Below, in pieces: positions 5,236 through 39,028 of a stretch of 45,597 nt of DNA. Positions within the stretch are counted from its first letter, which is position 1; every line of letters begins with the position of its first letter. This DNA comes from Desulfuromonas sp. GTDB taxonomy: Bacteria; Desulfobacterota; Desulfuromonadia; Desulfuromonadales; BM501. The notes below the pieces were generated by a model. It saw only the letters and a list, made by a program, of their open reading frames with translations. It made no database searches and was not told where the DNA came from. The stretch lies in NCBI RefSeq assembly GCF_002868845.1, contig NZ_PKUB01000048.1:46830-92426 (forward strand). Direction: 5' to 3'. The translations under genes and the position numbers were made by a program.

Positions 5236-5316
5236 CCCTCGGTTTAAGCTGTTTCCATGAAGTGCAAGGGGGCAGATGGCTGCAGGCCCCCTGGATTTAG
5301 GTTGATTGGAGCGCCT

Positions 5317-6711
5317 ATGTACATCCTGGATACCGATAACCCTGCCCCGCTCTACCAGCAACTCTATAGCCAGATAAGAGAGCGCATCCTGTCGGGGCGG
5401 CTGCCCGCCGATTCCAGGCTTCCATCCGTCCGGCACCTGGCCGCCGAACTTTCAACCAGCCGCAACACGGTCGAAGGGGCTTATCAGGAACTGTACGCCG
5501 AAGGGTACATCTACAGCAGACCGCGCAGCGGTTATTTCATCTCGGCCCTCGACCAGGAGGCCGCGCCGCTGTCCCTGGTGCACAAGCCGCGCAAACGCGC
5601 CCCGCTCCCGGCGCCCCCGCCGCACTACGATTACGATTTCCACCCTGCCCGCCTCGTCCCGGAGAGCTTTCCTGCGCCCCTGTGGCGCAAGCTTTTTACG
5701 GAAAGCCTGCGCGAAAGCTCCCGAGATCTTGTCTAGTACGGCGACCCCCAGGGAGAGCGGGACCTGCGCCGCACCCTCCAGCACTACCTGGAGCGTTCAC
5801 GGGGCGTGGTCTGCGACCCGGAGCAGATCGTCATCTGCGCCGGACTTCAGAACAGCCTCGACATTGTCGCCCAGATTCTGAAGGACAGCCATCCGGTGGT
5901 GGCTGTCGAGAATCCCGGCTTCCACCTGCCGCGTTCCGTCTTTCGCAACCATGGGTTTGACGTCGTTCCCGTTCCCGTCGGATCGGGCGGGATGGACCTG
6001 GGTGCCCTCAAAACCAGCGGCGGCACCCTTGTCTATGTCACCCCCTCGCACCAGCTTCCCATGGGTTGCGTGATGCCTGTGGCCAACCGGATCACATTGA
6101 TCGAGTGGGCCGAATCGAGCGGCAAGCTGATCATCGAAGACGATTACGACAGCGAGCTCCGCTACCACGGCAAACCGATCCCCTCATTGCAAGGTTTGCG
6201 ACCGCAGGGGCCGATCATCTACCTGGGGACCTTCTCCAAAGTTCTCTCCCCGGCGCTGCGCGTAAGCTACATGGTCCTGCCTGATGCCCTCCTCGCCGCC
6301 TACCGCCGGCTTTTTCAGGATTATTTTGCCACGGTCTCCCTGCTGGAGCAGAGAACCCTGGCAAAATTCATGGAGCGGGGGCACTGGGACCGGCATGTCC
6401 GCCGGATGCGCGCCATCTATAAAAAGAAGCACGACGCCCTGCTTCGAGCCGTCGACCGTCACTTCGGCACCCGGGCCGATGTCGTCGGGCAGGGGGCCGG
6501 GCTGCATGTCGTTTTGCAGCTGCCCGAGGGCACCCCGGGAGAGACGGAGATCATTGAGAGGGCACGGCAGAAGGGCATCCGCCTCTTTCCCTTTTCCGCC
6601 ACCTGCGCCACAGGCGAACCCGCCTCGACCCGGTTGCTGCTCGGCTTCGGCGGGATGAGCGCCAGCGAGTTGGAGCGGGGGATTGCCCTTTTGTCCCGGG
6701 TCTGCTTTTGA
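5317..6711 (+). pseudogene. MocR-type GntR/aminotransferase regulator (copy 1), internal TAG
   Basis: Read through one stop, this is a 464-codon MocR/PdxR-family regulator. It has an N-terminal winged helix (PLYQQLYSQIRERILSG, then LAAELSTSRNTVEGAYQEL) and a linker. The PLP-dependent type I aminotransferase domain follows, with EDDYDSELRY and the PLP-lysine motif GTFSKVLSPALR. The start ATG 5317 is preceded by GGAG at 5 bases. Codon 140 is TAG (5734-5736). The intact paralogue at 39.9 kb has CAG (Gln) at the aligned position, so one C-to-T transition explains the break. The frame is otherwise undamaged, so the lesion is recent, polymorphic or a sequencing error. If real, the product is the DNA-binding domain plus linker without the effector domain, which could act as a constitutive binder. 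Confidence 0.85.
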
Positions 6712-7160: not shown

Positions 7161-7419
7161 GGAACAACAGGCAGAAGGGTGGTTCTGAGGTGCGCGGTCA
7201 TGGCTTCCTCCCTGAAGGCAATAAAATTCGACGCGGCCATAACACTGTAAAATGTCGAGAGTCAGGAAGGGCCTGGCCTTTGCGACTTCCCCGGACCCCA
7301 AGCTTCTCTTGACTTTGTCTGAAATGGAGAGCCATCGTGGGCGGGACGACGCTGCATTGAGTATGGCCGCGAAGCGCGAGGCGGTGAAGATGGTGGCCGA
7401 CCCCGAATTGGAGTCATGC

Positions 7420-8265
7420 ATGAATATTTTACATATCTCGGATCTGCATTTCGGTCCCCGCCACTGGGAGGGGGACGATCAGCTGCTGCTGGAGAAAATC
7501 AATTCCTATGCCGCCGATATTGTCATCAATACCGGAGACAGTACAACCGATGGCCTGGAAGATGAGTATGCCGAGGCGGGGCGCTTTCTGAATGCCATCA
7601 CGTGTAAAAATGTTATCTCCACCATCGGCAATCATGACAAAAGAAGTATGCGCTCCCATGAACTATTCCGAAAATATATCTACAATTCCGACACTATCTG
7701 TATCCCGGAAACGGTAAAAACCACCAAGAAACACCTCTTTCTGAATCGGGAGATAACAAAAGTCAACGAAAATTTTACCGATGTGAATTTTATCAAATCC
7801 ATTTCTGTCAAGGGCCAAACCCTATTGATTATTAACATCGACTCCAATGAATTGTACAGTGATGACGGATATGTTGAAAAAGAGGTTCTGAGTGCGGTTT
7901 CGATGAAAATTGAGCAGACAGAATATGATCTGCCGCTCCTGATGACTCATTATTCGATTCTGGGCACCGACGAGTGTCCGCTAAAAAATTCCGCCTGCCT
8001 GATCGATTTTGTACAAAGGCACAACATCAAATACGTCTTTTGCGGTCATACCCACGAGCTGGAACTGATGCGAACCACCGACCTGTATCACGGCCACTCC
8101 TTTCACCATTTCATGTGCGGCACCCTGGCCTCCTGCAATCATGCCAACGATGACAACATGTTCCTGTATTACGAAAATTTTGACAGCGATGAGATGCACT
8201 TGTATCTGACCCGGATCTTTCTGGAGCGGGGCAAGGTTCATTTCAAGGAGGAAATGGTCTTTTAG
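7420..8265 (+). CDS. calcineurin-like metallophosphoesterase
   Basis: This 281-aa cytoplasmic protein has all five metallophosphoesterase motifs: ISDLHFG (Asp8, His10), NTGDS (Asp40), GNHD (Asn71, His72), MTHYS, and CGHTH near residue 210. These coordinate a dinuclear metal centre. The set and length resemble CpdA/3',5'-cyclic-nucleotide phosphodiesterases and related phosphomonoesterases; the substrate cannot be deduced. The start ATG 7420 is chosen because GGAG lies 6 bases before it and homology begins at MNILHISDLHF. GC is clearly lower than in the flanking backbone, like the four-gene operon converging from the right. It may therefore have arrived with that operon and remove a phosphate in the same pathway, which is inference from proximity only. 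Confidence 0.85.
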   Translation: MNILHISDLHFGPRHWEGDDQLLLEKINSYAADIVINTGDSTTDGLEDEYAEAGRFLNAITCKNVISTIGNHDKRSMRSHELFRKYIYNSDTICIPETVKTTKKHLFLNREITKVNENFTDVNFIKSISVKGQTLLIINIDSNELYSDDGYVEKEVLSAVSMKIEQTEYDLPLLMTHYSILGTDECPLKNSACLIDFVQRHNIKYVFCGHTHELELMRTTDLYHGHSFHHFMCGTLASCNHANDDNMFLYYENFDSDEMHLYLTRIFLERGKVHFKEEMVF

Positions 8266-8397: not shown

Positions 8398-9669
8398 CTA
8401 ATCCCGCTTAACTCCCAGCTCTGCCAATGCCGCCTCGAGCAGCTGAAGTTGGGCCATGTCGTCGGCCAGAAGAATCACGGCGAAGTTTCCGGTCCGTGAT
8501 AAATCTTCGCAGTTGAAAGGAAACACGGAATTCGATTTGCTGCCGTCGTAAAGTACTGAATCGATCCGTTGGCTCAATTCGACAAAGGTGCAGGGGGTCG
8601 TCTTGATCTTGATAAACTTCCAGACCGGAACCGGCCCCATCAATCCTTCAATGTTATGCAGGATCATGTGCACAAAGGAAGAGCCATTAAAGCGGGCATT
8701 ATTCTCAACCGGGAAGATCCCTTCATCGGTGACGATATAATCGAAACCGGTCACCCCTCGATATCCCGATTCGGCCATCTCGGATACGAGTTTCAGCGAT
8801 GTCGATGTAATGGCCTCAACGACTTGCGATGAAGGCCCTTGTCCCTTGAGACTGCCGACATGCACCATCCCCTGCTCGCAGAGCTGCTCGATCATGCCGA
8901 TATGGGTGACCCTGCCGTCCAGACCGACGACCCATTGGTCATTCGGGGTGGACCTGACCTGCAAAAAAGGTTCGATGAGCACGACCTTTTCGCCGCTATC
9001 GGCAATGGTCTGGTAGAGTTCGGCAAGGTCAGCGCCCGTTGTCTTGTACAACGACATGCCGGCCTCACCCAGGGTGCCTCGGATGATGACGGTGTCGCGG
9101 GTAGACCGGTAGCCTTCAACCAGGCTCCTCATTTCCTCGAAGTTGTCACTACCCTCCGGCTGCATTGCAAAGGCGACACCCTCCACGACCGGCACCTTCA
9201 ATCGCTGGCACAACGCCTTAAAGGTCGCTTTGTCGTTATGTTTCCACGTATCGGCTTCGGTAGCGCCAAACAGCTCAGCGCCAAGGGCTTTGGCCGCAGC
9301 GGCTTCCATTTGGGTCGAGAACCAGGGGGCGTAGACCGGTTTCCCGCCGATCTCGCTGATCTTCTTTTTAACCGGTTCCGGATTAGCCACAATCAGTTCC
9401 GAGAGGGTCTTTCCGAGGGGGGGCATGTTGTAAGAAACGACATGGTCTGATCCCAATTTATGGGAGCGCAACCAGCGATGATAGTCCTGATCCAGTTCGC
9501 CACGCAAAACCACCAGGTCGCCGGCGCTTGCCGAGGCCAGGGCGCGGTCACTTTTCGCAGTGACTGAGGCATCACGCCGGGGAAATTGGGAAAAGTTATC
9601 GACGGCATAAATGACCAGGTCGTCTTTGTTGTCAGAAATTGCGGTTCTTATCGATTGAAGGTCTGTCAC
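8398..9669 (-). CDS. ATP-grasp ligase, peptide-synthetase-like
   Basis: This 423-aa protein has an N-terminal pre-ATP-grasp region (about 1-150) and an ATP-grasp fold. Visible elements are the lysine-containing WKHNDKATFKALCQ, the strand VIIRGTLGEAGMSLYK (nucleotide-binding loop), and the metal ligands in FPVENNARFNGSSF near residue 325. ATP-grasp enzymes join a carboxylate to an amine or thiol through an acyl phosphate. The gene starts with GTG (9669) after GGGAG and is last in an operon behind a PssA-like transferase (37-base gap), a PLP enzyme and a nucleotidyltransferase. A likely inference is that it adds an amino acid or other acid to the amine of the head group made by these enzymes. 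It could equally modify a free metabolite. Substrate is unknown. Confidence 0.8.
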   Translation of the reverse strand: MTDLQSIRTAISDNKDDLVIYAVDNFSQFPRRDASVTAKSDRALASASAGDLVVLRGELDQDYHRWLRSHKLGSDHVVSYNMPPLGKTLSELIVANPEPVKKKISEIGGKPVYAPWFSTQMEAAAAKALGAELFGATEADTWKHNDKATFKALCQRLKVPVVEGVAFAMQPEGSDNFEEMRSLVEGYRSTRDTVIIRGTLGEAGMSLYKTTGADLAELYQTIADSGEKVVLIEPFLQVRSTPNDQWVVGLDGRVTHIGMIEQLCEQGMVHVGSLKGQGPSSQVVEAITSTSLKLVSEMAESGYRGVTGFDYIVTDEGIFPVENNARFNGSSFVHMILHNIEGLMGPVPVWKFIKIKTTPCTFVELSQRIDSVLYDGSKSNSVFPFNCEDLSRTGNFAVILLADDMAQLQLLEAALAELGVKRD

Positions 9670-9706
9670 TTCGGACTCCCGGGAACGGTATAAAAAAACG
9701 TGCGGT

Positions 9707-10369
9707 TTATGCCGGACAGAGCAATTTCCAGCCGTAGGCCAGCGTCAGCACCAGCGTGTAACCGGTGACGGCGTAATACCAGCGTCCGGCAAATTTAGGG
9801 GTCTTGATCGGCGCGACGTTGAGGGCGCAGAGAGCCATCAGCAGTGCGTAGAGCATTGGGCCGAAAACCGCGGGACTGACCAGGCCGTCAAAGAGGAAGA
9901 GAAAAACCAGGATAATCACATTGTTGTCGAGGGCCAGACCCCAATAGGTTGATTTGTCCACCAGGCCAAAGACATTAAAATAGCTCAGCCGGATCACGCC
10001 GGTCGCGACAACGATAAAGGCTCCGGGGATGTACCAGGGGCTGAAATTGCCATAGCTGAGCAGAATAACAGCGGGACAGATCCCGAAACTGACAATATCG
10101 ATCAGCGAGTCGAGTTGGCCGCCAAACTCCCCCTGCTCATGGGTTCGACCTTTCATCCGCCGGGCGATAATGCCATCGCTCCAGTCAAAGAAGACCGCCC
10201 AGATCAGGCAGATCATCGCTGCCGGGAAATTGCCCAGAAAACCGAAATAGATGCCGAATATTGCGCAGAGGAGGCCGACCAACGAACAGATGTTCGGCAG
10301 GTCCTTCGCGTAGCAGAGGATGGCCCTGGGAGTCTCTGGGGGCGTTGGGGTTTGGGGAGATTCACTCAT
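9707..10369 (-). CDS. CDP-alcohol phosphatidyltransferase, PssA-like
   Basis: This 220-aa integral membrane protein has about six to seven hydrophobic segments. The CDP-alcohol phosphotransferase signature is present: Asp65-Gly66-x2-Ala69-Arg70, then Gly83-x3-Asp87-x3-Asp91. The gap between Arg and Gly is 12 residues rather than the canonical 8. The stretch LDSLIDIVSFGICPA after the motif resembles phosphatidylserine synthase (PssA) more than PgsA. These enzymes displace CMP from a CDP-activated alcohol by another alcohol. The ATG overlaps the TGA of the upstream PLP-enzyme gene by 4 bases, so the two are translationally coupled. The enzyme may use CDP-diacylglycerol or a CDP-alcohol made by the nucleotidyltransferase of the same operon; the sequence does not decide. 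Confidence 0.85.
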   Translation of the reverse strand: MSESPQTPTPPETPRAILCYAKDLPNICSLVGLLCAIFGIYFGFLGNFPAAMICLIWAVFFDWSDGIIARRMKGRTHEQGEFGGQLDSLIDIVSFGICPAVILLSYGNFSPWYIPGAFIVVATGVIRLSYFNVFGLVDKSTYWGLALDNNVIILVFLFLFDGLVSPAVFGPMLYALLMALCALNVAPIKTPKFAGRWYYAVTGYTLVLTLAYGWKLLCPA

Positions 10370-11493
10370 GAACTTTTCTCCGAACCGATAATCACACCTA
10401 AGGCCTCAGCCACAACCTTGTTTTCAGCCTGGGTGCGGCTGGCAATGCGGATGTAACGGTCAGATTCCGGCATCGTCTTGCCCTGGCAGTGCTTGACGTA
10501 GATATTGTGCTGGACAAAAAGCCTGCGGGCCACCTCGGGACAGGAAGGAGCATGGTCGGGCAGCCGGCAGAAAATATAGTTGGCGTCAGGCCGATAGACC
10601 GTCAGTCCATTAATGGCACAGAGGTCCCGATAAAACTGATCTCGATCCGCCCGGACCCGGTCGCAACTGGCAAGAAACTCCTGTTGGTATTCAGGGGCAT
10701 GAATCAGAAAGGTTTCCGCAAAGCCGTTGAGGTTCCAGATATGCAGCCCTTGACGGACCTGATCGGCAAATGCCGCGTTGGCCGTCAGCATATAGCCGAT
10801 GCGCAGACCGCAGATACCGTAAGCCTTGCTCATGCTCTTGAAGATCGCCAGGTTAGGGTATTTGGCGATATCCCCGTCCAGGGTTTCCCCGTCGCGATCC
10901 CGGGCAAAATCGATGAAAGATTCATCGACGATAAGGATACAGTCGTGCGCGGCCAGCTTGTCCAGCAGGCGAACCAGATGCGCTTTGGGTACCAGCAGTG
11001 ACGTCGGATTGTTCGGCGACACCACCACCGCAACGTCGGCCTTGTTGCGGATAGCCTCCGCCGCAAACTTATCTACATCGAGCTGGAAGGAAGGCGCATC
11101 GAGGGCGAACTCAATTACATTTTCCGTCGGTGCGGCATTGGCGTATTCGTTGAACGACGGCACCGGAACAATCAGCTTTTGGGCGAGGTGGCCGGAGACG
11201 ATATTGATCAACTCTGCCGCGCCATTGCCGACCACAATCCGTTCCGGCGGCTGGTCGATGAGGGTGCCCACCAGTCCGGCCAGAACATCCTGAGCGACCG
11301 GATAGTTCAGCACCAGTTCATTGATCTGGCTGGTCAATTGCTGGAAGAAACGCTCTGGCGGAAAATAGAGATTATAGAGGTAGGCATGATCGATAAAGTC
11401 ATGCCGCCAATAGCCGCCATGCTGGCGTTCGATGGCTTCAAATTGTTGTTCTTTGTTAGCCGCATCCAGATTTATCGTATTTTGTTCTGTCAT
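10366..11493 (-). CDS. HisC/CobD-like PLP-dependent aminotransferase or decarboxylase
   Basis: This 375-aa fold-type I PLP enzyme has the marks of the histidinol-phosphate aminotransferase branch: VVGNGAAELI (88-97), SPNNPTS (159-165, Asn162), VDESFIDF (189-196, Asp190), the PLP lysine Lys223 in KSMSKAYG, and Arg231. The same branch includes CobD (threonine-phosphate decarboxylase) and related serine-phosphate decarboxylases, which act on phosphorylated amino acids. An unusual N-terminal extension (about 1-50, HGGYWRHDFIDHAYLYN) is not typical of biosynthetic HisC. With no his genes nearby and a LicC-like nucleotidyltransferase upstream, action on a phosphorylated amino alcohol precursor is more likely than histidine synthesis (inference). 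The ribosome site before ATG 11493 is weak. Confidence 0.8.
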   Translation of the reverse strand: MTEQNTINLDAANKEQQFEAIERQHGGYWRHDFIDHAYLYNLYFPPERFFQQLTSQINELVLNYPVAQDVLAGLVGTLIDQPPERIVVGNGAAELINIVSGHLAQKLIVPVPSFNEYANAAPTENVIEFALDAPSFQLDVDKFAAEAIRNKADVAVVVSPNNPTSLLVPKAHLVRLLDKLAAHDCILIVDESFIDFARDRDGETLDGDIAKYPNLAIFKSMSKAYGICGLRIGYMLTANAAFADQVRQGLHIWNLNGFAETFLIHAPEYQQEFLASCDRVRADRDQFYRDLCAINGLTVYRPDANYIFCRLPDHAPSCPEVARRLFVQHNIYVKHCQGKTMPESDRYIRIASRTQAENKVVAEALGVIIGSEKSS

Positions 11494-11598
11494 GTTTTGT
11501 TATTGCCTATCGTTAAAGCGATCAGAACTGACGACTGTCTTACGGTCTTTACACAGAAACCGTCAACCCCATCCCATTTCATTCCCGGAGAGGATCGC

Positions 11599-12498
11599 TC
11601 AATTAGAGGTAGCTAGGGGCAATAATGGGAATACGGGTTTGCCCGGAGTCGTATGTTTCTTCATGTCGAGAGCCTTCTGGGAACGGACCCTGATAGCTTC
11701 CCGAAGAGGTGACAGCCTCTCGTCCATAGCTACCTTGACCTTGGAAGGCTCGGGAAACATTTTCTCCGCCGCGCTCAGGTCCTCAAGGGTATCGATCTCA
11801 TACCAGCGGGCAGCATCAAAGAAAACCGGCGCAAAGGAGATGGTCCCTTCCGCAACCATCTCGGCGAAGATCGACTCATAATAGCCATTCACCTTCCCGG
11901 CGGAAATATGTTGATCCAGTCGTTTCTGGATCAACGCCCAGGTGTTCCTGGAGAAGTTGTAGATGTTCACCGTCTTATAATGGCTGGCGTCATTGCGGCT
12001 TGCAGTGCCGAGGCAAAAGCCCTCCAACTGTTGCCGTTCATTGAGCGTCACCGTCGTGCCGTTCATCCATGGCAGCATTTTGGAGACAGCAACCCGGTCA
12101 GGTTGGAGCATAGGCGTAAGCAGTTCCGGATGAAAAACCAGATCGCTTTCAATCAACAGAAAAGGTTCGTCAATGACTGCTCCGGCAAGCCACAAGGAGT
12201 AGATGTTGTTGGTTGTTTTATATCGCGGGCTGTGGATATATGTGATTTCAATATCGGCATGCCGACTGCCCAGATAGTCTTGAATAACTTCCGACAGGTG
12301 GCCTGTGACCACAAAGAGCCGATTGAATCCGTGACTACGCAGGGAGCGCATCAACCTTTCAAGGATGGGGAGAGTATTCACTTCGACAAGACATTTGGGT
12401 GTTGAATCCGTCAAGGGAGAGAGTCGACTCCCCATGCCGGCGGCCAACAACAAGGCGGTTCTCACCGGGGTACCATCATTTGAAAGGTCACTGTGCAT
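11599..12498 (-). CDS. LicC/PntC-like nucleotidyltransferase
   Basis: This 299-aa protein is a MobA/LicC-type NTP transferase. It has the nucleotide loop LLAAGMGSRLSPLTDSTPK (17-35), the acceptor segment TTNNIYSLWLAG and the metal-site ESDLVFHPELL typical of phosphocholine and aminoethylphosphonate cytidylyltransferases, and WYEIDTLEDLSAAE near the C-terminus. It should transfer CMP (or another NMP) to a phosphorylated or phosphonylated amino alcohol. The start ATG 12498 has AGGAG 6 bases upstream; a longer frame to 12567 lacks one. It is the first gene of a four-gene operon (11599-12498, 10366-11493, 9707-10369, 8398-9669). The residues after about 275 form a basic tail outside the fold. Confidence 0.82.
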   Translation of the reverse strand: MHSDLSNDGTPVRTALLLAAGMGSRLSPLTDSTPKCLVEVNTLPILERLMRSLRSHGFNRLFVVTGHLSEVIQDYLGSRHADIEITYIHSPRYKTTNNIYSLWLAGAVIDEPFLLIESDLVFHPELLTPMLQPDRVAVSKMLPWMNGTTVTLNERQQLEGFCLGTASRNDASHYKTVNIYNFSRNTWALIQKRLDQHISAGKVNGYYESIFAEMVAEGTISFAPVFFDAARWYEIDTLEDLSAAEKMFPEPSKVKVAMDERLSPLREAIRVRSQKALDMKKHTTPGKPVFPLLPLATSN

Positions 12499-13194
12499 TA
12501 ACGCTCCTGATGTTGCCTGAGGTGAACAGGGAAAGGAAAAGGGGGGAATCATGCCCGGGTGGAGCAACCGTCACTGTGCTCAGCCGAAAAACAAACGACA
12601 TAAGGTCGCTGGCAGGCTAAGAAACTGCACCAATACAGGTGAGAGAACAAGCCTGTGCATGGTGGCTGAACGGATAAAAGACGAGCGGTGTTCTTTTTCC
12701 GGGGTGCGAGAAAGAACCTGTATGGGACCTGAACGGTTGAAAGTATTGAGTGTTCTTTTTAGTGAGTACGAGAAAGAGATTGAGAATGGAGACTGGAAAG
12801 GTAGAAGTGAGCTTTTTGGCAGGGCTTATTGCGGGAAACGAACGTCGCCTCACAACATGTTACGTGACCAAGGCTTTAAGATATAGCACTTCACCGAAAC
12901 ATGCAAGGGTAATGCTGTCAATAGGGTAGTGCTGCACAGTCTTTGAAAATCGACATTAGAGCCTGAGGGAGTTCCGGGGGATGGGTCTTGGGGACATTCT
13001 ATGGTCCAGACGTCAACAGGAAAAGAGCGGGGGGGGCGTGGAGGCGAAAAGGGGACTGATTTGTTTTCGGAAAAATCAAGAGTAAAGATGCGCCGCAAAA
13101 GCCAACGGCAGACTTGACCCCTTTGGCACTCCTTGTGGGAGTGCCTTAAAAAAGTGTTACGGCAAGACTTGAACCCGCCGCTCCGTCCGGATCT
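12499..13194. other. intergenic region with degenerate repeats
   Basis: About 700 bases lie between the operon start and the stop of the YitT gene. A 111-codon plus-strand frame (12551-12886) has no homology I recognise and no ribosome site. The region contains two imperfect direct repeats of the pattern TGTTCTTTTT..GAGAAAGA (about 12690-12715 and 12750-12775). It also has one arm of a GGGGAC-GATTTG repeat (about 13053-13070) and a hairpin at 13125-13145. It looks like accumulated debris beside the acquired operon. Confidence 0.45.
13125..13145 (-). terminator. hairpin downstream of yitT-like gene
   Basis: A GGCACTCC/GGGAGTGCC stem with a TTGT loop lies 50 bases past the stop at 13195. A-rich sequence rather than a clear T-tract flanks it. 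Confidence 0.5.
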
Positions 13195-36985: not shown

Positions 36986-38626
36986 CTAAAAGCAAGCTCC
37001 TGGCAACTGATTCCAGAAATCTCTTAACAAAAGCTCCTTGTTCGACGCTGTGAACTGGTAGTTAAATCTCGTGGTGTTGCTGCTCACCTGATCAACTTCA
37101 TCAGTAAACATGCCTATTCGCAGCCCTGTGGGGCGCAAACCTTCTAATAGCTTGTAGACCTGGGCGTTCACCTCCTCAGGGGTCAAAGACCTGTTGTCTG
37201 TTTCGGCGTTCATGTTTCTGGCATACATCGAACTCTCACAAGGATTGATGGAGAGAAGGGTCAGGTAATTCAGGTAAATGTTGTTTAGCAGTTCAAGGGT
37301 GCCAGCAACGTGCTCTTCTGATAGCCTCAGGCCGCCAACCCCTGGCATTAACATGGCGGAGGTCTCGATTTCAGCCTCGACAAACATCTTTGAAGCCTCA
37401 ATCATGTCATTGCGAGTGCAGTCCTTACATACATAACGCAATACTTCATCTGAACCGCTCTCCAGCCCCCAGTAGATCAAGGATAGGCCTGCATCCTTGA
37501 GCTCTTTCAGTTCGTCGACAGACTTCTCCAGTATCGAGGCGGTCCGGCCGTAAAGAGAAACCCTCTGCGGGTTGAAGATGTCTCCGGCATAGTGCAATGC
37601 GCCTAGCAGCAGGCCGGTGTCGACCCCCAATTAGTTTCCGCTGCCGACGAACAGCCGTTGGAGCCTCGATTTTTCGGACCCTATCGAGGCAACGACCTTG
37701 TCTACGTGTTCCCTGAACTCGTCAAGAGACTTGTTTTCAGGTGCCATTTCAGAATATTCAGAGCAGAACGTACAACGGTTGTAATCGCACCCTGTCGTTA
37801 GCTCTAAACGTAAAACGTGGGGCTTCCTCTCGGAGGGGGGAGATGACAAGTCGTGTGAACTGAACAGGTTCCTGTCCTTGTAGGTCTCATCCAGCCTGGG
37901 AGCCAAAGTGGAAAAAATTCGGCTCGGCACACCGATAAGTTCACCGGAAACTTCTTTTATAAAGCCCTCATCGATCAGGAATTGAACCCCGGTATTCGCA
38001 GCAAAGGAATAGACGGAGGAGTCGATATTCGATCTCATGGCCCGCAGCATGGAATCGCAAAAAAAGTATTGAGCAATGCCGTCGATGCTTTGATGCCGGT
38101 CCAGAAGGTTTTCCAAGGTCAAGACCTGGAGTTCTTCATCGGGAACTTCCATTGAAAGTACATCCGCGCCGTAACGTCCAGCAGTGGAATAGAATCTAAC
38201 TCTTGACGCCCCATTCAGCTTTTCTGTGACAAACCCCTCGCTTCCAGGCTTAACGTAACTGGCTCCGCTGCACAGCCTTACAAGAACCCTGCTGCCTTTT
38301 TGTAGCGAAGAAAGGTTTTCGCATTCCAACGATCGAAGTAATGTTGGGCAAAAATGGTTTTCTAAATCGAGATAAGAAAAATTTTCCAGGCACTGGTCGG
38401 TCATTCCCAATGGGTGATGGGCTCTTGCTTCCAACGATTTGACAACGTTTTCCACCACCCCAAGTTTATCGCACGAATTCTCAAAAAGGGAGTTTATGCC
38501 TTTAAAGTAAGGCAATAAGCTCGAAAGGCCATGATTCGTAAATTTACGAATCAGTTTTTCCCTGTTGACCCTTTGACCGTCAACTTGCCTTAACATCCAC
38601 AATAAATCACAGTGACTTACAAACAT
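36986..38626 (-). pseudogene. radical SAM protein split by TAA, 5' end at IS remnant
   Basis: Two in-phase frames (37631-38626 and 36986-37630) make one protein of about 546 residues. TAA at 37631-37633 separates VGSGN from LGVDTG, inside what should be a continuous radical SAM strand-loop. The radical SAM cluster motif is TTGCDYNRCTFC (Cys280, Cys285, Cys288; CX4CX2C). It is preceded by a 270-residue domain I do not recognise and followed by a typical barrel (YWGLESGSDEVLRYV). The first ATG at 38626 has no ribosome site and lies a few bases from an IS1595-like remnant. The 5' end is therefore probably lost. GC is low compared with the flanking genes. The reaction is unknown. Confidence 0.7.
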
Positions 38627-38636
38627 ATATTGGCTG

Positions 38637-38756
38637 CCGTACGGGCCGTAGAGCCCGAAACAAAGTGTTCGATGAGCCGTTCTTGCTTGGCCTGACTCAG
38701 ACGACTTTTTCGCATACTGCTGTCCTAGACAATTTTCAGTTGTCTAGGACAGCCCC
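38637..38756 (-). mobile_element. IS1595-like insertion sequence remnant
   Basis: On the minus strand, ATG 38715 opens a frame MRKSRLSQAKQERLIEHFV that matches the N-terminus of IS1595-group transposases and breaks off after about 27 conserved codons. In front lies the IS end: GGGGCTGTCCTAGACAA, including a 12-bp inverted repeat (38721-38732 with 38740-38751). The other end and most of the transposase are gone, and the sequence fuses to the radical SAM gene near 38637. Confidence 0.7.
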
Positions 38757-38762
38757 TTAATC

Positions 38763-38837
38763 GCGACTTTGGTCCTCGTGCCGCTGATGATCAACTGGAT
38801 TGCTCCTTTCGTGAGGAAGCAGGTCGAGCGACGCTAA
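38763..38837 (+). pseudogene. possible C-terminal gene fragment beside the IS end
   Basis: A 24-codon plus-strand frame reads TLVLVPLMINWIAPFVRKQV and stops at 38835-38837. It looks like the last membrane helix and basic tail of a protein whose body was lost at the IS junction. The family is not recognised; the call is weak. Confidence 0.3.
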
Positions 38838-38905
38838 CGATGTTCCTCCAGTGCGATCCCCGGAGCGCACAAGAGGGACAACCTCAAGAAGACATGGAGA
38901 TGGCC

Positions 38906-39028
38906 ATGAAAGTATTAGGCGTATCCGGATCCCCGGTCCCAAACAGCAACACCGACAGGGCGTTGAAACTCGCCCTGGAGGCGACCGTTCTGGACACGGA
39001 ATTCATCAAGCTCAAAGACTACTCCTGA
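38906..39028 (+). pseudogene. N-terminal fragment of NADPH-dependent FMN reductase
   Basis: Forty codons from ATG 38906 match the start of flavodoxin-fold FMN reductases and iron-sulfur flavoproteins. KVLGVSGSPVPNSNTD is the FMN-phosphate-binding loop and the frame continues to EFIKLKDYS. A TGA then ends it. No Cys cluster or catalytic body follows in any frame, so about 150 residues are missing. It lies beside the second FMN-binding protein gene, suggesting a former flavin-protein cluster. Confidence 0.65.

Follow-up and report, generated by a model that had tools for sequence, protein, structure and literature searches.

A candidate phosphoserine-fed CDP-ethanolamine module in Desulfuromonas and other bacteria and archaea

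In textbook accounts, bacterial phosphatidylethanolamine is formed through cytidine diphosphate (CDP)-diacylglycerol by PssA and Psd, and the CDP-ethanolamine (Kennedy) pathway, consisting of ethanolamine kinase, ECT/PCYT2 and EPT/CEPT1, is treated as eukaryotic. Among bacteria, Treponema denticola possesses a CDP-choline pathway (LicA-LicC-CPT), in which choline is taken up and then phosphorylated, and in which a LicC-type cytidylyltransferase is combined with a CDP-alcohol phosphotransferase (PMC3972451). In phosphonyl tailoring, a LicC-like cytidylyltransferase, PntC, acts on a small primary-amine phospho compound, and the T. denticola PntC is fused to a pyridoxal phosphate (PLP) enzyme (PMC6697681). 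Here we analyzed a stretch of 45,597 nucleotides from Desulfuromonas sp. (contig NZ_PKUB01000048.1, positions 46,830 to 92,426; hereafter the window), in which the minus strand at positions 8398-12498 encodes four proteins in this order of transcription: a nucleotidyltransferase resembling LicC and PntC, a PLP enzyme resembling CobD, a CDP-alcohol phosphotransferase and an ATP-grasp ligase (Table 1). On balance, we favor the reading that this operon is a Kennedy-type branch fed by phosphoserine and not by free ethanolamine.

The substrates and reactions of this branch, which we infer from the genes present and their conservation together, from their placement in families and from the observed changes of motifs and replacements of genes, would be as follows. 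The PLP enzyme would decarboxylate O-phospho-L-serine to phosphoethanolamine, the nucleotidyltransferase would convert phosphoethanolamine and CTP to CDP-ethanolamine, and the membrane phosphotransferase would pass the phosphoethanolamine on to a lipid alcohol, in the simplest case diacylglycerol, so that phosphatidylethanolamine or something closely similar would form without PssA and Psd; where present, the ATP-grasp ligase would probably acylate the head-group amine. The last two steps would thus resemble those of the Kennedy pathway, and a variant in Colwellia (see below) even contains an ECT-like enzyme. However, the module lacks an ethanolamine kinase, its phosphoethanolamine would derive from phosphoserine, its cytidylyltransferase is of the LicC/PntC type and its transferase is PssA-like and short (220 amino acids). 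Compared with LicA-LicC-CPT, a decarboxylase-type enzyme stands in for the kinase, and the residues for amine binding match those of PntC; compared with the PntC system, there is no phosphoenolpyruvate (PEP) mutase, the PLP enzyme belongs to another family and a membrane CDP-alcohol phosphotransferase follows. No description of a phosphoserine-fed CDP-ethanolamine route in bacteria was found in the open-access literature, although this is weak evidence of novelty because most subscription papers lay outside the search. The module is probably a bacterial variant of the animal pathway that, so far as we found, has not been described.

Querying the GTDB representative genomes with the CDP-alcohol phosphotransferase yielded 79 loci, all of which were tabulated; many of them come from metagenome-assembled genomes, with unsure taxon names and boundaries. 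The carriers include Desulfobacterota, Pontiella, Flavobacteriaceae, Gammaproteobacteria, Methanosarcinales and others, so that archaea (Methanosarcina among the hosts) as well as bacteria carry the module, and its distribution is sparse and patchy, the phosphotransferase gene occurring in 3 of the 297 genomes sampled from the phylum. A cytidylyltransferase gene lies near the phosphotransferase gene in 69 of the 79 loci, being a nucleotidyltransferase of the operon type in 55 and a small CTP_transf_like enzyme in 14; in the other 10, judged by coordinates, a contig mostly ends right beside the phosphotransferase gene. Intact genes for the nucleotidyltransferase, PLP enzyme and phosphotransferase stand side by side in 47 loci, and the latter two abut or overlap (gap of 0 bp or less) in 42/54 loci. 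The 47 intact loci extend from Desulfobacterota to Pontiella, Flavobacteriaceae and Methanosarcina, so the genes travel as a set among marine microbes of distant kinship. The pairwise protein distances among the 47 intact loci are correlated (r 0.83-0.91), and a permutation test, applied to the phosphotransferase/nucleotidyltransferase pair only, gave no value as high in 1000 permutations. Given the intact loci, the gap pattern and the correlated distances, the grouping of the three genes is not due to chance. These genes form a conserved core with the ligase as an optional fourth; the co-conservation proposed in a first-pass annotation of the sequence thus holds for three of its four genes, the ATP-grasp gene being found downstream of the phosphotransferase gene in about 21 of the 79 loci. 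Neither of the contrary outcomes raised there, a lack of co-conservation or a histidinol-phosphate enzyme, occurred, as shown by the 47 loci and by the placement of the PLP enzyme outside the HisC clade. In the loci examined, the module is not accompanied by recurrent cobamide or sugar genes, nor by any one kind of lipid gene. One Methanosarcina locus (L051, 3280-9599) contains the core in two tandem copies, with an ATP-grasp fragment of ~53 amino acids between them.

The strongest argument for the substrate comes from gene replacements beside the transferase. Fourteen Colwellia-type loci lack the nucleotidyltransferase and PLP genes; in them, the phosphotransferase gene is followed by a 130-amino-acid cytidylyltransferase that is non-homologous to the LicC/PntC type and that, among solved structures, best matches human ethanolamine-phosphate cytidylyltransferase (102 bits, compared with 67 bits for glycerol-3-phosphate cytidylyltransferase). 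A search of Colwellia-type genomes for a stand-alone orthologue of the PLP enzyme returned only HisC-like or other weak matches (<=82 bits, versus about 680-730 for true members). In two further loci (L034 and L044), the PLP gene is swapped for a PhnW-like 2-aminoethylphosphonate (AEP) transaminase (300 bits); AEP is an isostere of phosphoethanolamine. Because an activated aminoethyl phospho(n)ate would be supplied by two non-homologous routes beside the one transferase, this enzyme would be expected to use CDP-ethanolamine or CMP-AEP, and we regard aminoethyl phospho(n)ates as the likely substrate class of the module. A similar pair lies back to back on a prophage-like contig with capsid-type genes (L163, 1799-3125), where the CDP-alcohol phosphotransferase is 52% identical and the adjoining cytidylyltransferase matches ECT first by a small margin, as if this were a phage-borne lipid-head-group pair.

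The residues of the nucleotidyltransferase point in the same direction. The best solved relatives of its family profile are LicC (1jyk, 92.6 bits) and then PntC (6pd1, 71.7 bits). In T. denticola PntC, Glu104 and Glu196 are placed to hydrogen-bond the amine of AEP, while LicC has Asp there (PMC6697681). E117 and E208 of the Desulfuromonas enzyme align with this pair, and both are invariant in 23 relatives. Since the amine-contacting pair is kept, phosphoethanolamine, AEP or another small primary amine fits as the substrate, and we propose that the enzyme is a CTP:phosphoethanolamine cytidylyltransferase.

The PLP enzyme scores best among NCBIfam models with that of CobD, the threonine-phosphate decarboxylase (TIGR01140, 173.7 bits), followed by HisC (TIGR01141, 145.3 bits), although both scores are below the respective cut-offs of 290.55 and 276.55. 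Among solved structures, the nearest to it is 6oux (173 bits for the family profile), deposited as a ‘threonine phosphate decarboxylase-like enzyme’, which we take to be SMUL_1544 of Sulfurospirillum multivorans, an enzyme that reportedly governs norcobamide (ethanolamine-linker) biosynthesis (work cited in PMC6461909). In a tree that combines the operon PLP proteins with homologues of the CobD and HisC types from these genomes, the operon clade joins the CobD-type decarboxylases (98/95) and HisC is separate; the operon branch is long and so forms its own family. The motif HGG near the N-terminus is present in 13/14 and RxxSR in 14/14 operon proteins; HGG and RxAxR (near the C-terminus) both occur in 4/4 CobD-type comparators and neither in 12/12 HisC-type ones, which read RI[ST][IV]G at the RxAxR position. 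A HisC function is ruled out by the tree, motifs and cut-off. The operon enzymes share their fold, HGG, RxAxR and closest solved relative with the cobamide decarboxylases of the CobD and SMUL_1544 type, but differ from CobD in their separate long branch, their score and their location away from cobamide genes. The Desulfuromonas genome also encodes full-score CobD (305 bits) and HisC proteins elsewhere, so the operon copy presumably serves something else, and a cobamide role was rejected given this separate CobD and the lack of recurrent cobamide genes around the module. The first-pass annotation had the PLP enzyme making a phosphorylated amino alcohol, to be activated with CMP by the nucleotidyltransferase and transferred by the membrane enzyme; comparative sequence evidence supports this order and sharpens the compound to, most likely, phosphoethanolamine, for which the PLP enzyme is proposed as an O-phospho-L-serine decarboxylase.

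The CDP-alcohol phosphotransferase shares its overall fold and catalytic Asp residues with phosphatidylserine (PS)/archaetidylserine synthases (PssA and MjPSS of M. jannaschii). The PF01066 motif DxxDGxxAR...GxxxDxxxD is present, with D62, D65, G66, A69, R70, G83, D87 and D91 invariant, and the score for PssA (TIGR00473) is 71.7 bits, below the cut-off of 107. The AlphaFold model (pLDDT 86) matches the M. jannaschii PS synthase with Z 20.4 (2.8 Å over 180 residues), and Xenopus CHPT1 and human CEPT1 with Z 10.5 and 7.8, respectively. In contrast to PssA, the spacing from AR to G in the catalytic motif is 11-12 in 32/32 aligned operon-family proteins and not the usual 7-8, reflecting a four-residue insertion in nearly all members (12 residues in the window protein versus 8), and a cytidylyltransferase gene is a neighbor. 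Moreover, the serine-binding motif RLARFN is replaced by RLSYFN (as in the window protein), RLSYYN or RLSHFN in 32/32 members, so that Tyr or His takes the place of the serine-binding Arg; RLARFN is kept in the PssA of the same genome (L086), whose spacing is 8, and in eight others passing or belonging to PssA. The RLARFN segment of PS synthase coordinates serine (R104 and F105 in MjPSS; PMC8633023), and loss of R189 in Candida Cho1 raises the Km for serine (PMC8727905). By this feature, the enzyme is predicted not to be a PS synthase, a function that was ruled out by the lost motif in spite of the agreeing fold, and the modelled fold indicates descent from one; the earlier label ‘PssA-like’ is therefore apt for the fold and not for the reaction. 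We propose an ethanolaminephosphotransferase using CDP-ethanolamine. In three Desulfobulbales-type genomes (L124, L125 and L127), open reading frames of 437-442 amino acids each give two matches to the PssA model, as a fusion of two CDP-alcohol phosphotransferase domains would.

Several observations weigh against a phosphoserine-fed CDP-ethanolamine branch. Psd is present in 18/18 module genomes tested, so that a phosphatidylethanolamine product would be redundant. Serine phosphate and threonine phosphate are not distinguishable by sequence as the substrate of the PLP enzyme. The Colwellia gene pair is separated by about 270 bp, and its co-transcription is unproven; the PhnW-like proteins are below their family cut-off (300 versus 360.8 bits), and no PEP mutase above the family cut-off was found in the L034 and L044 genomes. 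As for the transferase, its fold is nearer to the CDP-diacylglycerol-using MjPSS (Z 20.4) than to CHPT1/CEPT1 (Z 7.5-10.5), and in M. jannaschii PSS half of the activity survives the loss of the equivalent Arg (PMC8633023).

The first of these points bears on the lipid acceptor, which, together with the ligase substrate, is the least certain part of the proposal. Canonical PssA and Psd genes lie adjacent to each other elsewhere in the Desulfuromonas genome, so the module would be an extra route, which may give phosphatidylethanolamine under other conditions or feed another lipid acceptor. We put diacylglycerol at slightly less than an even chance. The best-surviving alternative, which we consider rather unlikely, is that CDP-activated phosphoethanolamine goes to ceramide, an alkyl- or archaeol-type glycerol, a hopanoid or another polyprenol-like alcohol, giving a specialized lipid in place of bulk phosphatidylethanolamine: the existing PssA and Psd and the rare, patchy occurrence (3/297 phylum genomes) in archaea and bacteria speak for it, but no fixed lipid gene stands alongside the module in the loci examined, and the acceptor is not readable from the sequence.

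It is improbable that the PLP enzyme makes 1-aminopropan-2-ol phosphate from threonine phosphate for a phosphatidyl-isopropanolamine lipid; CobD being its best NCBIfam model would agree with this, but that match falls far short of the CobD cut-off, the nearest solved structure is that of 6oux, a full-score CobD is encoded separately in the genome, and the replacement genes belong to ethanolamine-phosphate and AEP metabolism. Still less probable is a PS-synthase-like enzyme joining CDP-diacylglycerol to an alcohol, with the PLP and nucleotidyltransferase genes serving an unrelated sugar or cobamide pathway. The fold and best solved match are those of PS synthase; however, the serine motif is lost in all 32 aligned members, nearly all have the four-residue insertion, the pairing with cytidylyltransferases involves non-homologous families, and recurrent cobamide or sugar genes are missing from the loci. 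A phosphonolipid made through CMP-AEP is the least probable, since the similarity to PntC, the PhnW-like gene in L034 and L044 and a PEP mutase in 3/12 module genomes tested are set against the lack of one above the cut-off in most of these genomes and in Desulfuromonas (best 22.3 bits, cut-off 31.5), and the PLP enzyme that normally accompanies the nucleotidyltransferase is of a decarboxylase type that would be superfluous in a phosphonate route. This route was accordingly rejected for the Desulfuromonas genome, as the first-pass annotation had stated for the window, whereas the module may have a phosphonate variant elsewhere, given the PhnW-like transaminase in two relatives.

Regarding the accessory genes, the ATP-grasp protein has weak sequence matches to CPSase/PreATP-grasp, LdmS and BesA, and its model is closest to the peptide ligases 8ynd (E 1e-21, TM 0.71-0.73), BesA and 3wvq, which makes amine acylation a natural guess. 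That the ligase acts on the head-group amine is tentative, and the earlier claim of acylation is weakened by the optional occurrence of the gene outside the core. A SAM methyltransferase of 268-347 amino acids is encoded downstream of the module in seven loci (L030, L038, L045, L046, L047, L054 and L075), and no locus holds it along with the ATP-grasp gene (79 loci, counted without regard to kinship), as might be expected if a single amine were tailored in alternative ways. It is conceivable, if unlikely, that the four-gene version makes an undescribed lipid class, an N-acylated (e.g. aminoacyl or short carboxylate) phosphoethanolamine produced via the phosphoserine-fed CDP-ethanolamine route, with sister versions that are N-methylated (the seven methyltransferase loci) or based on AEP (L034 and L044). 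A metallophosphoesterase gene at 7252-8265, missed in the first-pass annotation, has homologues <=4.5 kb from the phosphotransferase gene in 11 loci, in several orientations.

Table 1. Genes of the module and accessory genes in the window
Feature	Position	Strand	Remarks
Nucleotidyltransferase, LicC/PntC-like	11599..12498	-	Pfam PF00483/PF12804; start ATG, TTG at 12567 possible alternative
PLP enzyme, CobD-like	10366..11493	-	CobD TIGR01140 173.7 bits, HisC 145.3; HGG, RIASR motifs
CDP-alcohol phosphotransferase, 220 aa	9707..10369	-	PF01066; 8 helices in model
ATP-grasp carboxylate-amine ligase (accessory)	8398..9669	-	weak CPSase/PreATP-grasp, LdmS, BesA matches
Calcineurin-like metallophosphoesterase (accessory)	7252..8265	+	PF00149; homologues near module in 11 other loci

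The four families named in the first-pass annotation are all present on the minus strand: Pfam and NCBIfam place the proteins in the nucleotidyltransferase, aminotransferase class I/II fold, CDP-alcohol phosphotransferase and, weakly, ATP-grasp families. Because none of the four reaches a curated NCBIfam cut-off, none belongs to an NCBI-named family. The PLP and phosphotransferase genes overlap by 4 bp, and gaps of 105 bp and 37 bp separate the nucleotidyltransferase gene from the PLP gene and the phosphotransferase gene from the ATP-grasp gene, respectively. The low GC content reported earlier was confirmed (0.54 for the operon versus 0.65 in the remaining window up to 36.5 kb), and the low-GC island is broader than the operon (about 7.2-15.1 kb, GC 0.52). 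Given this island and the presence of the phosphotransferase gene in just 3 of the 297 sampled phylum genomes, the operon in Desulfuromonas looks acquired. A search of a plasmid collection gave no match, and a promoter/terminator scan found no more sites than in shuffled sequences. A second low-GC stretch covers 37000-39000 and continues to 45597 (0.49-0.60 versus 0.62-0.71 at 15.5-36.5 kb). Elsewhere in the window, a MocR/PdxR-like regulator gene (5257-6711, plus strand), encoding a GntR domain and then an aminotransferase-like part, is broken by an in-frame TAG into two open reading frames (5257-5736 and 5806-6711).

If the proposal is true, a mobile module reaching CDP-ethanolamine from phosphoserine would constitute a second bacterial route for which no ethanolamine is needed. 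Enzyme families of cobamide, phosphonate and lipid metabolism would be linked by a single small head group, and the lipid gained by methanogens, marine anaerobes and piezophilic Colwellia could be sought directly by lipidomics.

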